22,912 bases of DNA from a virus, in IMG/VR virus record IMGVR_UViG_3300009149_000306, positions 1 to 22,912 of that record. The stretch is one strand, 5' to 3'. The notes beneath the pieces were generated by a model that had not been told where the DNA came from, did not search any database, and worked only from the letters and a program-made list of their open reading frames with translations. Below are positions 2,557-22,912 of this stretch, piece after piece. The translations under genes were made by a program, and so were the position numbers. Position 1 is the stretch's first letter. The number at the start of each line of letters is the position of its first letter.

Positions 2557-3729
2557 ATGGAGATGAAATATACAGTAACACCAGTCTATGACAAAATCAT
2601 TAAATACAAACACAGCGAACTGCTTCTCTTGCTTGGTGGTGCTGGTTCTGGTAAAAGTTATCCGATCTCTCAATACTGGGTGTATCACAAACTTCTACAT
2701 GAGACAGGTAAAACTCTAGTTGTATCACGTAGAACAATGCCCTCTCTTAAGTTGTCTGCCAAGCTAGAAATTTTATCTAGACTAGAAGAGGCGAACCTCC
2801 CGTATAAACCACAAAAAAGTGAAAACTATCTAACTTATCACGGGAACAAAATTATCTTCATGCAACTTGATGATCCAGCAAAACTAAAATCTATAAACGC
2901 AAACTATTGGTGGTTAGAAGAGGGAACCGAGCTTAACATCAACACCTTTACCCAAGTTAAGTTGAGAAACAGAAAACCAAACGAGGATGATAAAAACCAA
3001 ATCATAGTAAGCTTTAACCCTGTTAATAAGTATAACTGGGTCAAAGTAAATCTTATCGACACAAATGTACCATATGTTTTACTACATTCCACGTGGAGGA
3101 ACAATCCTTATTTATCCAAAGAATACCTACGATCCATATCGGAGCTGAAAGAGTATGCACCACATTTATGGGAAGTATATTCAGAAGGGAAATGGGGAGC
3201 AACAGAAGGTGTTATTTACAAACGCTGGAAGGTCGGTCAATACCCCGAAGATACGGAAGGTTATAAAGTTTACATAGGGCTAGACTTTGGAGCCACAAAC
3301 CCGACAGCGATCATTATGATGGCGGAAAAAAATGAACATCTTTACGTAAAAGAAATTTGCTACGAAACAAACATGTCGAACCAAGATATAATAAGGAGAT
3401 TGAAAGAAGCGAACGTACCACGACATCTCACAATATGGGCTGATCCAGCTGAACCCGACAGGATAAAAGAAATACGGAGAGCCGGTTTTAATATTCGTGT
3501 AGCAAAAAAACGAGTAACCGATGGGATTATGGCAGTACAGACATACAAAATAATGATTGAGCCGGAAGCCGAAAACGTGGTGAAAGAAATATCTGGGTAT
3601 CGTTGGAAAGAAGTGAACAATATCACGTTAGATGAACCGTTAAAACTAAATGACCACGCAATGGATGCCATACGATATGGGGTTTATAGCGAATACAATA
3701 AGACGTCTCCTATCATCCAATTCGTGTAG
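2557..3729 (+). CDS. terL: Terminase large subunit (ATPase-nuclease)
   Basis: A 390-residue packaging motor protein, somewhat short for the family (usually 400-550) but with both domains complete. The ATPase domain has Walker A GGAGSGKS (27-34), Walker B-type YWWLEEGTEL (117-126, acidic E121/E122) and the coupling motif SFNPVN (152-157). The RNase H-like nuclease domain has GLDFG (D243), WADPAEPDRI (D296) and LNDHAMDAIRYG (D370). This is the PBSX/Terminase_3 type. It docks on the portal, translocates DNA with ATP and cuts the concatemer. The start is ATG 2557; ATG 2563 is an alternative, and neither has a strong ribosome site, suggesting coupling to the small subunit gene. The stop codon overlaps the first dyad of the downstream regulatory array. 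Confidence 0.95.
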   Translation: MEMKYTVTPVYDKIIKYKHSELLLLLGGAGSGKSYPISQYWVYHKLLHETGKTLVVSRRTMPSLKLSAKLEILSRLEEANLPYKPQKSENYLTYHGNKIIFMQLDDPAKLKSINANYWWLEEGTELNINTFTQVKLRNRKPNEDDKNQIIVSFNPVNKYNWVKVNLIDTNVPYVLLHSTWRNNPYLSKEYLRSISELKEYAPHLWEVYSEGKWGATEGVIYKRWKVGQYPEDTEGYKVYIGLDFGATNPTAIIMMAEKNEHLYVKEICYETNMSNQDIIRRLKEANVPRHLTIWADPAEPDRIKEIRRAGFNIRVAKKRVTDGIMAVQTYKIMIEPEAENVVKEISGYRWKEVNNITLDEPLKLNDHAMDAIRYGVYSEYNKTSPIIQFV

Positions 3730-3831
3730 TTATTACGGTATTAACTAGAGTTATTACGGTATTAACTAGAGTGACATTGATGGTTATACCGTAGTAATTA
3801 CAGTCGCACTGATATAAACACTGTTTTTAGT
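3728..3831 (+). promoter_or_regulatory. Regulatory dyad array A: four 19-bp imperfect palindromes
   Basis: Two identical tandem sites, AGTTATTACGGTATTAACT (3728-3746 and 3749-3767), are near-perfect dyads with one T:T mismatch per arm. A third, one base shorter, is GGTTATACCGTAGTAATT (3782-3799), and a fourth, weaker, is TATAAACACTGTTTTTAGT (3813-3831). Dyad centres are 3737, 3758, 3790 and 3822, giving steps of 21, 32 and 32 bases (two, three and three helical turns). All would face the same side of the DNA. No T-run follows, so these are not terminators. They look like cooperative sites for a dimeric DNA-binding protein; the binder is unknown. Confidence 0.6.
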
Positions 3832-3839
3832 ACACAAAT

Positions 3840-3884
3840 TAAAGTAAAGTAAAGTAAATTAAACTAAAGTAAATTAAACTAAAG
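3840..3884 (+). repeat. TAAAN pentamer array A (nine units)
   Basis: Nine uninterrupted pentamers: TAAAG x3, TAAAT, TAAAC, TAAAG, TAAAT, TAAAC, TAAAG. The array starts 18 bases after the centre of the fourth dyad and ends inside the ribosome site AAAGAGGTGATCC (3881-3893). The same element follows the second dyad array at 21784. Its strong A/T strand bias fits a flexible or easily melted segment, or a multi-site binding tract. The function is unknown. Confidence 0.75.
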
Positions 3885-3895
3885 AGGTGATCCTT

Positions 3896-3946
3896 GTGAT
3901 TTATTTTATAGGTATAAACTTGACATTAAAAAAAGTAAGGTTATAA
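3896..3946 (+). CDS. Putative 16-codon leader peptide before the portal gene
   Basis: The best ribosome site in this intergenic region, AAAGAGGTGATCC (3881-3893), is not placed for the portal ATG but for GTG 3896. That GTG opens MIYFIGINLTLKKVRL and stops with TAA at 3944-3946, seven bases before the portal ATG at 3954. The portal start itself has only a weak, distant AAGG. The layout suggests translation and re-initiation on read-through mRNA. The peptide is too short for any homology argument and may serve only for coupling. Confidence 0.4.
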   Translation: MIYFIGINLTLKKVRL

Positions 3947-3947
3947 C
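3920..3947 (+). promoter_or_regulatory. Predicted sigma-A promoter abutting the portal start codon
   Basis: TTGACA (3920-3925), a 16-base spacer and TATAAC (3942-3947). The portal ATG is at 3954, seven bases after the -10 box, where transcription would be expected to begin. If used, it gives a leaderless or nearly leaderless portal mRNA. It lies downstream of dyad array A and the pentamers, so it could be the promoter they control. Confidence 0.45.
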
Positions 3948-3953
3948 ACAAGT

Positions 3954-6008
3954 ATGACAACACTGCAAACGATTCAAAAGAAAATTGTTGGAAGTGTACG
4001 TAAAATGTTGGGTGTAGGGAATCCCTACGATCTCCTAAAAACCTATACAGTGGACAATATCACAGACCCGAAAACCGCATATGCGAATTCTATGTATTTA
4101 CAGGCTTGCTTGAAGAAGAACGCAACGTACATATCGGGAGTCCCAGTAGCTATGCAGCAAACTTTAGAAAAGTTTAACTACCATTATACATGGAAGAAAA
4201 CAATATATAGTTTATACCACCTTATGGAGCTACATGGCTACGGCATATTTTGGTATGAACGATCAGAAAAAATATTGTGGCTTGTTGATCCGAGTGACAT
4301 TACAAGAGGTGAAAAAGGTTTCTTTGATTGGAGAAACAGGACGTTGCAAACAACACAGCATGTGCACTATACAGATTGTGTAATCATACGAAATATGGCT
4401 CCTACTTTGACCGCTACGGGGGCATCTCTTTTGACGGAAGGGTATTACAACCAATTAAATATCGATTACCAACAGGCAGTTATGGAACTAAAGTTTTTTA
4501 GACGAGGGCTCTTTTCAGGAGCATATTTAATATCAGAAGGGATACTGAATGACCAAGAAAAAGACAATATAAAGGCGCAGCTGGCTCACGAGTATAGTGG
4601 ATCCAAAAATGCAGGATCCATACCTATATTTCCAAAAGACTTAGAGTTGAAAACGATCACAATGAACCCTAGTGACTTCAAGAAGAATGAAGGTTCAGGA
4701 GATACGATAGCAATTAAAAAGGCTTGCATGATGACTGGTGTACCACCTCCGTTACTTGGTATAAGAGATGCGGGCTGGGGTAAAGAAGAAGACGTAATAA
4801 CATCGTATTTTACAGGAACCATACGTGTGTATTGCGAATCGATAGCAGACGAGATCAATTTACGATTATTACCCCTGCTTGGTATAGCAGGAAGATACGA
4901 GTATGAGTACCATAAGGACCTTACTTTCTCAAAGATAAATCGAGAAACGAATAAGGCATTGTTAGAGTACGTTAAATATGGTGTATATACAGTAAATGAC
5001 GTAAGGGACCAGTTATTTATGCCCCACGTGCCTTGGGGTGATAAACCGATGAATATGCAGCCAGTAAAAGAAGAAACCGGAGAAAAACAAGTGTTCGGGT
5101 TACCCAAACTACAAGTTGTACAAGTCAAGAATACAAAAGGGTATCCTGTGGATGTTGCGATGGCACTCGATGACGCAGAAAAAAGACGATCGAATTCGGA
5201 AAAAATTATAGCAAGGCAGATGGAGAAATATTACAAGGCGCAAAAAAAAGATGTGCTAGCGAAAATAGAAAATGCGGAAACGACTAGAGATCTTGAAAAC
5301 GTAAGTGTCGATAAAAAGTTTGGGAAATATATAATAAGCATTGGGAAAAGTATGTTACCTCACATTTATTATGACATAGGGCAGGGGACCTTCATTTTAT
5401 ATAAGAGTGCCTACGGAGATCTAGACGAGAAACGTAATAAGCTAAGCCCGGATGAACTAGACCGCCTTATGGAAGAATTATTACATGACGAGAGTATTAT
5501 GCCAGAGTATGCGACGCCAGGTTTTGAGTTAAACAATCCAAACGTACTCAGGGCGATCGAAGACCAAGCCAACAAGCTTTCTATCAATATTTATGGTACG
5601 GACGTGACAATGATACACAATGAAATCAAAAAAGTTCTTGCAGAGATATACGAAGAAGGCTTAGGGATCAATGAAACGGCAAAACGAGTGCACAATGCAG
5701 TGTCTCACAAATACGATAGTTGGTTACACCACAGGGTCCAGGCAATAGCAAGAACAGAGTCCACAACGGCATATACACATGCAGCAACGGAGGGAGCGAA
5801 ACAAGCGAGTATGGATATGAAGAGCTGGCTCCATTCAGGGAATATGACAAATCCTAGAGAGGAGCACGTTGCAGCAGAGGGTGATTGGATACCCATTGAT
5901 GCTGATTTTGAGATAGGTGGTACACCCATGTATGGGCCAGGAGATGGACCAGCAGAGCAGGTTGTAAATTGTGGATGTTCACTGATATTCGGTAGAGACG
6001 TACGATAG
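3954..6008 (+). CDS. Portal protein fused to a MuF/SPP1 gp7-type head morphogenesis domain
   Basis: A 684-residue protein, well above the usual 400-500 of portals. Residues 1 to about 370 match PBSX-type portals, including AYANSMYLQACLKKNATYIS, the ELKFFRRGLFSGAYLISEG segment and MTGVPPPLLGI. The portal is the dodecameric ring through which DNA enters. About residues 400-525 form a charged helical linker. Residues 526-684 match the phage Mu gpF / SPP1 gp7 family, with RVQAIARTESTTAYTHAATEGA and the closing block GDWIPIDADF...MYGPGDGPAEQVVNCGCSL. That domain is normally a separate minor head protein needed for correct assembly or DNA ejection. No stop or second start separates the two parts. 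Confidence 0.92.
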   Translation: MTTLQTIQKKIVGSVRKMLGVGNPYDLLKTYTVDNITDPKTAYANSMYLQACLKKNATYISGVPVAMQQTLEKFNYHYTWKKTIYSLYHLMELHGYGIFWYERSEKILWLVDPSDITRGEKGFFDWRNRTLQTTQHVHYTDCVIIRNMAPTLTATGASLLTEGYYNQLNIDYQQAVMELKFFRRGLFSGAYLISEGILNDQEKDNIKAQLAHEYSGSKNAGSIPIFPKDLELKTITMNPSDFKKNEGSGDTIAIKKACMMTGVPPPLLGIRDAGWGKEEDVITSYFTGTIRVYCESIADEINLRLLPLLGIAGRYEYEYHKDLTFSKINRETNKALLEYVKYGVYTVNDVRDQLFMPHVPWGDKPMNMQPVKEETGEKQVFGLPKLQVVQVKNTKGYPVDVAMALDDAEKRRSNSEKIIARQMEKYYKAQKKDVLAKIENAETTRDLENVSVDKKFGKYIISIGKSMLPHIYYDIGQGTFILYKSAYGDLDEKRNKLSPDELDRLMEELLHDESIMPEYATPGFELNNPNVLRAIEDQANKLSINIYGTDVTMIHNEIKKVLAEIYEEGLGINETAKRVHNAVSHKYDSWLHHRVQAIARTESTTAYTHAATEGAKQASMDMKSWLHSGNMTNPREEHVAAEGDWIPIDADFEIGGTPMYGPGDGPAEQVVNCGCSLIFGRDVR

Positions 6009-20268: not shown

Positions 20269-20528
20269 TGGACGAAGAGAAATTAATCATCCAGTTGATC
20301 ACTTGCGTGTCGCGATTAGATTCGACCATTGAATCATTGAAAGATCTCATGGTTGAAGCGAGAAAGGATCACAAAAAGCTTGACGAAAGAGAAGCTGAAA
20401 ATTGCAAACGGATGAAATCAGCGATCGCTAATGTGGAGCTTAGAAATAGTAAACAGATTATTGCGTTAATGGTTGGGTTGGTTATTTCGATTGGATTGGT
20501 AGTTTTATATGGAGTGTACGCATTATGA
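20268..20528 (+). CDS. XhlA-like lysis accessory membrane protein
   Basis: An 86-residue protein with a GTG start overlapping the previous TAG stop. A long charged helix (about residues 1-60, likely coiled coil, with IIQLITCVSRLDSTIESLKD and EAENCKRMKSAIANVELRN) is followed by one C-terminal membrane segment (IIALMVGLVISIGLVVLYGV). This is the layout of haemolysin XhlA-type proteins, which help holin and endolysin lyse the host. It is next to the amidase and holin genes, and its stop overlaps the amidase ATG (ATGA). Confidence 0.75.
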   Translation: MDEEKLIIQLITCVSRLDSTIESLKDLMVEARKDHKKLDEREAENCKRMKSAIANVELRNSKQIIALMVGLVISIGLVVLYGVYAL

Positions 20529-21178
20529 ACGATAGATATATGTTAGACATGCCGAAATACATCGTAGTGCATCATACGGTGATACCAGTAAGTTATACAG
20601 ATAAGCAGCATCTTGATATACTACAAGGGCAGAATACACGGTTGCACGGATCTGCTTTTGGAGGTTTGTATCATAAGGTAGTGTTGCCATCTGGGTTAGT
20701 TAAAACGCTTGTGCCAGTGGGCAGGTATGCCCCGCATATCGATTTTAACAAGGGTGAATACTACGTAAATAATGACAATGCAATAGGTATAGCTGTGAGC
20801 TACAATGGGAATGTAGATCAAATGACTGGAGCACAGTGGAAAAACCTAGTGAACGAAGTGGCGTGGATGCAGCGAGAGTATCACATTGAGTCGATAAAAC
20901 CGCATAGAGATATTAACCCGACGGCGTGTCCTGGAAATTTGTTTCCGTTTGATACCTTGCTGAGTGAAGTAAAACGTACATTGGAGGTGGGCGGGGAATC
21001 TACTGTGCGTGTATTCATGGATGTTGAAAACGAACGATGGAGTAAAATAGCGATCGAATATGTGAAAAATTGTGGGCTTATGCGCGGGTATGAGGATGGT
21101 ACATTTAGACCGGAAGATTCTTTGACTCGTGAAGAGATGGCTGCAATTTTGTATAACTTGAGTAACTTGAAAGCCTAA
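20525..21178 (+). CDS. Endolysin: N-acetylmuramoyl-L-alanine amidase with one C-terminal SLH domain
   Basis: A 217-residue endolysin with no signal peptide, so export depends on the holin. Residues 10-152 are an Amidase_2 domain with zinc ligands H16 (YIVVHHTV), H127 (KPHRDINP) and C135 (TACPGN). It would cleave the bond between muramic acid and L-alanine in peptidoglycan. After a short GGEST linker, residues 163-212 form one SLH domain (RVFMDVENERWSKIAIEYVK, then GLMRGYEDGTFRPEDSLTRE). SLH domains bind the secondary wall polymer that anchors S-layers. Wall binding in endolysins is more often by LysM or SH3 domains, and surface proteins usually carry three SLH copies, so a single one is notable. 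GGAG (20511-20514) lies 10 bases upstream of ATG 20525. Confidence 0.9.
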   Translation: MNDRYMLDMPKYIVVHHTVIPVSYTDKQHLDILQGQNTRLHGSAFGGLYHKVVLPSGLVKTLVPVGRYAPHIDFNKGEYYVNNDNAIGIAVSYNGNVDQMTGAQWKNLVNEVAWMQREYHIESIKPHRDINPTACPGNLFPFDTLLSEVKRTLEVGGESTVRVFMDVENERWSKIAIEYVKNCGLMRGYEDGTFRPEDSLTREEMAAILYNLSNLKA

Positions 21179-21578: not shown

Positions 21579-21606
21579 TTGACAAGCTGAGTTGTGTCGT
21601 TATAAT
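21579..21606 (+). promoter_or_regulatory. Full-consensus sigma-A promoter for a short RNA
   Basis: TTGACA (21579-21584), a 16-base spacer and TATAAT (21601-21606) match both consensus boxes perfectly. It sits just after the late terminator. Transcription would begin near 21611-21614 and meet a terminator about 65 bases later, with no credible ORF between. Confidence 0.75.
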
Positions 21607-21612
21607 AAGTAT

Positions 21613-21679
21613 TAATTCTTTTCGATGATCTCCTGAAGTAATGTGCCTCCGGTTGCAAAAGCAGTCGGAGTTTTTTTTT
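21613..21679 (+). ncRNA. Candidate ~67-nt phage small RNA
   Basis: Bounded by a perfect promoter and a strong terminator. The only ATG inside (21641) would run a 25-codon frame through the terminator and lacks a good ribosome site. The 5' part contains an unpaired-looking GATGATCTCCTGAAG that is complementary to purine-rich AGGAGAT-type sequences, as in ribosome-binding sites, so antisense action is possible. It could also be an attenuated leader for the region downstream. No known RNA family recognised. Confidence 0.5.
21647..21679 (+). terminator. Intrinsic terminator of the short RNA
   Basis: A 10-bp stem, CTCCGGTTGC (21647-21656) with GCAGTCGGAG (21661-21670), two wobble pairs and an AAAA loop, followed directly by nine T residues. 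Confidence 0.85.
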
Positions 21680-21692
21680 ATTGGAGATAAAA

Positions 21693-21775
21693 GGTTAACA
21701 CTGTTTTTAGTACAGTGATGGTGTAGTTAATACTGTAGAAATTATGGACGTATTGACATTAATGCAGTTTTTAGT
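21693..21775 (+). promoter_or_regulatory. Regulatory dyad array B: three 19-bp sites at 32-bp steps
   Basis: Sites GGTTAACACTGTTTTTAGT (21693-21711), AGTTAATACTGTAGAAATT (21725-21743) and CATTAATGCAGTTTTTAGT (21757-21775) fit, with variation, the consensus of array A. Centres are 21702, 21734 and 21766, exactly 32 bases apart, with 13-base linkers. The first and last share the TTTTTAGT right half with the fourth site of array A. The first also overlaps a CACTGT...ACAGTG inverted repeat (21699-21717). The array lies upstream of the accessory cassette and just after the short RNA. Confidence 0.6.
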
Positions 21776-21783
21776 ACACAAAT

Positions 21784-21833
21784 TAAACTAAAGTAAACTA
21801 AAGTAAACTAAAGTAAAGCAAATTAAACTAAAA
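21784..21833 (+). repeat. TAAAN pentamer array B (ten units)
   Basis: Units run TAAAC TAAAG three times alternating (a 10-bp period), then TAAAG, CAAAT, TAAAC and TAAAA. The first unit begins 18 bases after the last dyad centre, the same distance as in array A, and 21 bases across the junction (21767-21787) are identical to 3823-3843. The stretch continues as A/T-rich DNA to about 21860 with no gene. Confidence 0.75.
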
Positions 21834-21877: not shown

Positions 21878-21906
21878 ATACTCTTTAAAAAAACTTGAAA
21901 AAAAAA

Positions 21907-21950
21907 GAAAAAAACGGTTGTAATCCCTTTTTTTAGGTATATAATAATAA
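21907..21950 (+). promoter_or_regulatory. Accessory-cassette promoter, copy 1 of a 44-bp exact repeat
   Basis: Contains TTGTAA (21918-21923), a 16-base spacer with a T-tract, and TATAAT (21940-21945). It is preceded by A-tracts at 21887-21893, 21898-21906 and 21908-21914, spaced 10-11 bases, resembling an UP element or bent DNA. The same 44 bases recur at 22869-22912. It would drive the gene at 21985. Confidence 0.65.
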
Positions 21951-22836: not shown

Positions 22837-22876
22837 AAAAAAACTTGAAAAAAACTTGAAAAAAACTTGAAAAAAA
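22837..22876 (+). repeat. Phased A-tracts (11-bp tandem repeat) upstream of the second promoter copy
   Basis: Four A7 tracts start at 22837, 22848, 22859 and 22870, separated by CTTG, giving an 11-bp tandem repeat. A-tracts repeated near the helical period bend DNA and can act as promoter UP elements. The tracts end at the -35 region of the promoter at 22880. Copy 1 has a less regular version. Confidence 0.8.
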
Positions 22877-22912
22877 CGGTTGTAATCCCTTTTTTTAGGT
22901 ATATAATAATAA
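22869..22912 (+). promoter_or_regulatory. Accessory promoter, copy 2 (reaches the window end)
   Basis: The 44 bases at 21907-21950 are repeated exactly here, with TTGTAA (22880-22885), a 16-base spacer and TATAAT (22902-22907). It follows a terminator, so it should start a new unit beyond the window. The repeat may extend past the edge. Confidence 0.65.

Follow-up and report, generated by a model that had tools for sequence, protein, structure and literature searches.

Two elements in the window, the 22,912-nucleotide stretch of viral DNA analysed here, are probably, judging from their sequence, two copies of a gene-independent phage replication-origin module situated among late genes. The late region of the 22.9-kb fragment resembles that of siphoviruses (terS-like gene, terL, portal-MuF, protease, capsid, tail, amidase); in it, element A (3728-3884) occupies the junction of terL and portal and element B (21693-21832) lies behind the lysis genes. 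In both, helically phased dyads are followed by an array of pentamers (Table 1). The same layout is present in the initiator genes of known phages, therefore A and B are most likely two replication origins.

Table 1. Components of elements A and B and neighbouring genes in the window
Feature	Position	Strand	Remarks
Terminase large subunit	2557..3729	+	left neighbour of element A; phrog_2
Dyad A1 (AGTTATTACGGTATTAACT)	3728..3746	+	first box of initiator type; overlaps stop codon of terL
Dyad A2	3749..3767	+	copy of A1, exact 21-bp tandem; centre -78 from array start
Dyad A3 (TGGTTATACCGTAGTAATT)	3781..3799	+	centre -46 from array start
Dyad A4 (TATAAACACTGTTTTTAGT)	3813..3831	+	centre -14 from array start
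ACAC junction (AGTACAC, then AAATTAAAG)	3832..3835	+	identical AGTACAC in Listeria B054 (AGTACAC, then AAACTAAAG)
Pentamer array A, (AAAGT/AAATT/AAACT)n	3836..3884	+	predicted to unwind; 5'-TnnT-3' ladder on bottom strand
17-codon leader ORF (GTG; RBS AGAGGTGAT)	3896..3946	+	between array A and portal ATG 3954; outside origin; sequence read directly
Portal protein fused to MuF domain	3954..6008	+	right neighbour of element A; phrog_2662/2468
Amidase with SLH domain	20525..21178	+	lysis module left of element B
Dyad B1 (GGTTAACACTGTTTTTAGT)	21693..21711	+	centre 21702; -78
Dyad B2 (AGTTAATACTGTAGAAATT)	21725..21743	+	centre 21734; -46
Dyad B3 (CATTAATGCAGTTTTTAGT)	21757..21775	+	centre 21766; -14
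Pentamer array B, (AAACT/AAAGT/AAATT)n	about 21779..21832	+	tandem-repeat analysis

On recheck, the four dyads of element A were centred exactly where the initial annotation had placed them, at 3737, 3758, 3790 and 3822 (steps of 21, 32 and 32 bp). It had also described the first two sites as identical and the first as overlapping the terminase stop; A1 and A2 are indeed identical 19-mers in exact tandem, and A1 overlaps the terL TAG at 3727-3729. Its interval took in the dyads, but by ending at 3831 left the key array outside. A1 and A2 have no mismatches to the consensus AGTTAnTACnGTAnTAACT, for which three matches were found at up to three mismatches against 0.12 expected; A3 and A4 are degenerate and weak on their own. 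From the position of the leader ORF, array A is non-coding, or at most a 5' leader. This ORF has a good ribosome-binding site and overlaps a promoter-like TTGACA-17-TATAAC sequence.

Element B lies beyond the interval first noted, in the same orientation as element A, with 17.9 kb between the copies, and the pentamer arrays of both surfaced in tandem-repeat analysis of the window. Dyads B1-B3 align with A2-A4 without gaps, with 60 of 87 bases identical in the dyad part (69%), whereas the next best place in the window reaches 44 (mean 23, sd 4; z=9). The steps in B are 32 and 32 bp, and in both copies the centre of the last dyad is 14 bp from the start of the array. Because the alignment is gapless and the 32/32-bp steps are kept in the second copy, A3 and A4 are validated; likewise, the presence of the array in both copies makes it part of the element. 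The seven dyads score 14.4-22.6 in a matrix scan, against 10.3 for the next-ranking site of the window; this matrix was trained on the dyads themselves and the scan is circular, but the gap in scores is informative. An RNA element was considered and rejected, there being no Rfam match, and the RNA folds of A and B being unlike each other and thus giving no shared structure.

Some other features of the window were observed. Between the lysis genes and B, a perfect promoter (TTGACA-16-TATAAT, 21579-21606) is followed by a strong terminator (21647-21679), giving an apparent transcript of ~65 nt, which has no Rfam match and no unusual fold stability. A near-identical block, TTGAAAAAAACGGTTGTAATCCCTTTTTTTAGGTATATAATAATAA, containing a promoter is present in two copies, at 21881-21950 and 22837-22912; the contig end falls inside the second of these, probably through an assembly break at the repeat. 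There is a perfect DnaA box, TTATCCACA, at 269-277 in the first ORF, distant from A and B.

The two arrays rank highest in the window for period-5 strength (37/45 and 35/45), the next place reaching 24 and the shuffled maximum being 27, and they are also its two least stable 49-bp stretches. TnnT motifs are confined to the bottom strands, with 9 in one array and 10 in the other. A period of five cannot arise from codons in the initiator genes, and the array is non-coding in the window, which together point to a role at the level of the DNA. GC skew does not turn at A or B, although all genes share one direction. Several of the phage initiators contain a DnaB_2 domain, which is common to DnaD-type proteins. 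DnaD, an initiation protein of the host, has pairs of TnnT as its motif in single-stranded DNA (PMC10201434).

A near-identical contig (L004) carries the same element A. Beyond this contig, blastn against phages and plasmids and pattern scans of viral contigs and genomes returned, for the exact element, only chance single sites within genes. No close relative of the phage was found in the collections by TerL or portal (best TerL 39%), and in distant relatives terL is joined to the next gene without a comparable gap. Simple conservation was therefore unusable at this junction, and the array was followed instead. The initial annotation had looked to conservation of motif and spacing among related phages; for these reasons the motif found no support there, whereas the spacing and layout are kept in the origins of unrelated phages.

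Searching viral contigs for (AAAST)n arrays yielded 76 loci, which fall into two classes. Arrays of the AAACT class are mostly leaders immediately 5' of start codons, therefore the presence of an array alone was not counted as proof. For example, AAACTAAACTAAACT arrays stand directly before start codons in many unrelated phages (L117-L192, AAACT class), several of them before genes for single-strand-binding proteins. Arrays of the AAAGT class often follow tandem iterons of very different sequence, with junctions such as CCACAAAGTAAAG, and have as neighbours Lin1244_N initiators (L131, L126, L157, L186), a replisome organiser (L160), DnaC-like loaders and DnaB helicase. Replication-initiation families lead the gene-family tally of this class and are absent among the top families listed for the AAACT class. 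In one metagenomic phage (L139, 8400-8490), two ATTTATG-N4-CATAAAT dyads ~31 bp apart precede an AAAGT array, the whole placed after the portal-MuF gene and before that of the prohead protease; by its sequence this would be another origin-like module in a head-gene cluster, in a position like that of element A. At a further locus (L169, 6150-6290), a CI-like repressor gene is followed by three ACTGTAAAAATTACAGT dyads, ~45 and 55 bp apart, and an AAACT array; the divergent repressor/cro-type gap there has different motifs, so these dyads are probably not CI operators.

An independent test came from the initiator genes of isolated phages (n=16), which were fetched by protein similarity, not by DNA, so that the array did not select the loci. 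Within the gene, dyads or iterons followed by a CACAAAGTAAAG-type array are present at nine of the 16 loci: bIL286, TP712, Latilactobacillus TMW 1.2272, Listeria B054, Paenibacillus PG1 and Pd_22F, Enterococcus EG-TP1 and phiFL3A, and Lactobacillus iLp84. In the Lin1244_N isolates (B054, bIL286, iLp84, phiFL3A, PG1 and others) the layout is TTAATG-N4-CATTAA dyads 21 or ~32 bp apart, then CACA, then an AAAGT array; B054 has two dyads 32 bp apart, the last of them 14.5 bp before the array, and the step in bIL286 is 21 bp. Elements A and B have both the helical steps (21 or ~32 bp) and the same-strand array of 5-bp period at a fixed distance after the last dyad. Relative to the array, the dyads are at -14/-46/-78 in A and B, at -14.5/-46.5 in B054, and at -46.5 in PG1, Pd_22F, and phiFL3A.

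A 75 bp origin model trained on eight isolate loci only placed B first in the window (28.6) and A second (19.3), in exact register, the next unrelated place scoring -7.5. Its background maximum was 6.2 over 60 shuffled genomes and 4.2 over 104 unrelated loci (748 kb). The signal stems from the array and junction, since training on the upstream bases only ranks B 4th and A 177th. A generic dyad test of the -14/-46 windows showed enrichment in the isolates, with hits in 5 of 16 tests against ~0.1 expected, and did not find the window's own imperfect dyads.

Operators of a transcription regulator are an unlikely explanation. Dimers bound to the dyads would repress or activate the portal operon at A and the post-lysis operon at B, and the A-rich array would be a mere unstructured leader or a UP-like promoter element. 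Such a role would suit the position of both elements between operons, their orientation with transcription, and the promoter-like sites downstream (TTGACA-17-TATAAC at 3919-3947, seen by eye, and TTGTAA-16-TATAAT at 21918-21945). However, a consensus scan found no promoter-like site in 3500-4100 and none overlapping the dyads, the nearest hexamers seen by eye start ~90 bp downstream, and B has a terminator on one side and, 85 bp past the array, a promoter on the other. The fixed register of the array and the match to initiator genes are also left unexplained. The regulator of the structural operon that the initial annotation preferred is therefore not upheld, given the lack of a consensus promoter over the sites, a second copy far off behind the lysis genes, and a 5-bp array in a fixed register that matches origins. 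Its alternative had been a replication or partition site, of which replication is favoured here and partition is not. Partition (centromere) sites of a plasmid-like prophage, such as TubR-bound tubC or scattered parS-like sites, are very unlikely, even though A1-A2 weakly match the region upstream of tubRZ in the Lysinibacillus sphaericus plasmid NZ_CP014644 (28/31, E=0.2) and its tubC-like regions hold TTATTACCGTAA boxes. Those boxes are similar, but they recur every 12 bp instead of every 21 or 32 bp and have no pentamer array, and with no tubRZ in the window and no TubZ relative in the phage collection, a TubRZ tubC centromere was rejected. Four loci upstream of tubR-like genes (L109, L111, L112, L113) belong to TubRZ plasmids of Lysinibacillus and Planococcus and carry tubC-like arrays of TTATTACCGTAA boxes at 12 bp in separate blocks.

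It is also quite unlikely that A and B serve packaging or recombination, or that they are inactive, as decoys or defective duplicates of an origin located in the missing initiator gene. The most similar modules do sit inside initiator genes and A and B are both outside one, and their dyad parts are only 69% identical. Nevertheless, both copies have retained the spacing, the junction, and the low stability, which points to selection; pac sites mostly lie within terS, and the locus L139 too has its module in a head-gene region. The replication-origin reading itself has to accommodate several observations: the ORFs scanned in the 22.9-kb fragment include no initiator gene, the dyad GTTAATACnGTATTAAC has a half-site related to but different from that of the isolates' TTAATG-N4-CATTAA, the origin model draws its signal from array and junction, GC skew has no turn at either element, the TP901-1 and lambda origins have no pentamer array, and AAACT-type pentamer arrays are also plain 5' leaders in other phages.

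If A and B are replication origins, a dimeric phage initiator of the replisome-organiser type, encoded outside the fragment, would bind the dyads. At spacings of 2 or 3 turns the dyads would share one face of the helix, allowing the bound dimers to form one cooperative complex; cooperative protein binding to the phased sites, as the initial annotation had supposed, is a well-supported interpretation of the sequence. With the last dyad 14 bp before the array, the initiator complex would be set at a fixed distance from it and the 5-bp-period array would melt. The exposed strand, with its 5'-TnnT-3' ladder, would then guide the loading of helicase loader and helicase. Either copy would be expected to fire, or one of them may instead be a late origin or fork barrier, by analogy with the proposal for oriR of SPP1.

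To our knowledge, the origins of most phages are unknown. The signature of dyads, CACA, and pentamer array was not found described in the searchable literature; the module would be a known kind of object in unusual form, with a sequence signature that may be general. A broader proposal, which is tentative and has slightly less than an even chance of being right, is that the 5-bp array is a widespread, unrecognised element of phage origins, in which the unit varies (AAAGT; ATAGG in Tuc2009) and the period and one-strand TnnT ladder stay. It would be a phage counterpart of the DnaA-trios or the DnaD recognition element, and in the present phage would belong to free-standing, duplicated origins among late genes. 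Dyads at 2-3 helical turns followed by CACA and a pentamer array would allow origins to be found from sequence alone, even where the initiator is unknown or encoded elsewhere, and would connect the origins of phages with the host's DnaD/TnnT mechanism. How theta replication and the switch to concatemers are organised could also be studied in a simple system, namely a phage that has two gene-independent origins next to head and lysis genes.

Among known systems, the Lin1244_N (DUF4373) origins (B054 gp52, bIL286 orf16, iLp84, phiFL3A gp20) are like A and B in having dyads 2 or 3 turns apart, the last ~14 bp before CACAAA, and an A-rich array of 5-bp period on the same strand. Unlike these, the module of the window is non-coding, outside any initiator gene (A at the terL-portal junction, B past the lysis genes), duplicated, and has the half-site GTTAATAC rather than TTAATG. 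Duplication is known in Bacillus phage SPP1, in which oriL and oriR have a similar organisation of repeats and an AT-rich unwinding element; oriR interrupts the late gene order and may trigger concatemer synthesis by stalling forks (PMC6316719). A and B agree with this published description in being two copies with the same repeats and an AT-rich element; by the same description SPP1 differs in that oriL is inside gene 38 and oriL and oriR are ~13 kb apart.

The replisome organisers of TP901-1 and Tuc2009 bind repeats in their own genes, which serve as origins (PMC8965321), and the record of the Lactococcus phage Tuc2009 Rep is annotated 'contains origin of replication'. In the Tuc2009 Rep gene, as in A and B, direct repeats are directly followed by an array of 5-bp period, ATAGGATAGGAGAGGTTAGG..., scoring 34/45 for period 5 where the null maximum is 26; the unit, however, is ATAGG instead of AAAGT, the repeat sequence is unrelated, and the array is inside the rep gene. 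The array is not universal, since period-5 analysis found none in the experimentally studied origins of TP901-1 and lambda. The lambda ori resembles A in having four dyads of 18 bp next to a stretch that is A-rich and strand-asymmetric, but has steps of 20-24 bp, is inside gene O and has no period-5 array, therefore A and B are not of the lambda type. In B. subtilis oriC the trios are of 3 nt and bound by DnaA, whereas the window has 5-nt steps and a presumed phage initiator; nevertheless, the DnaA-trios and DnaD recognition element of oriC are like A and B in their short tandem steps by initiator boxes and their TnnT ladder on one strand (PMC10201434).
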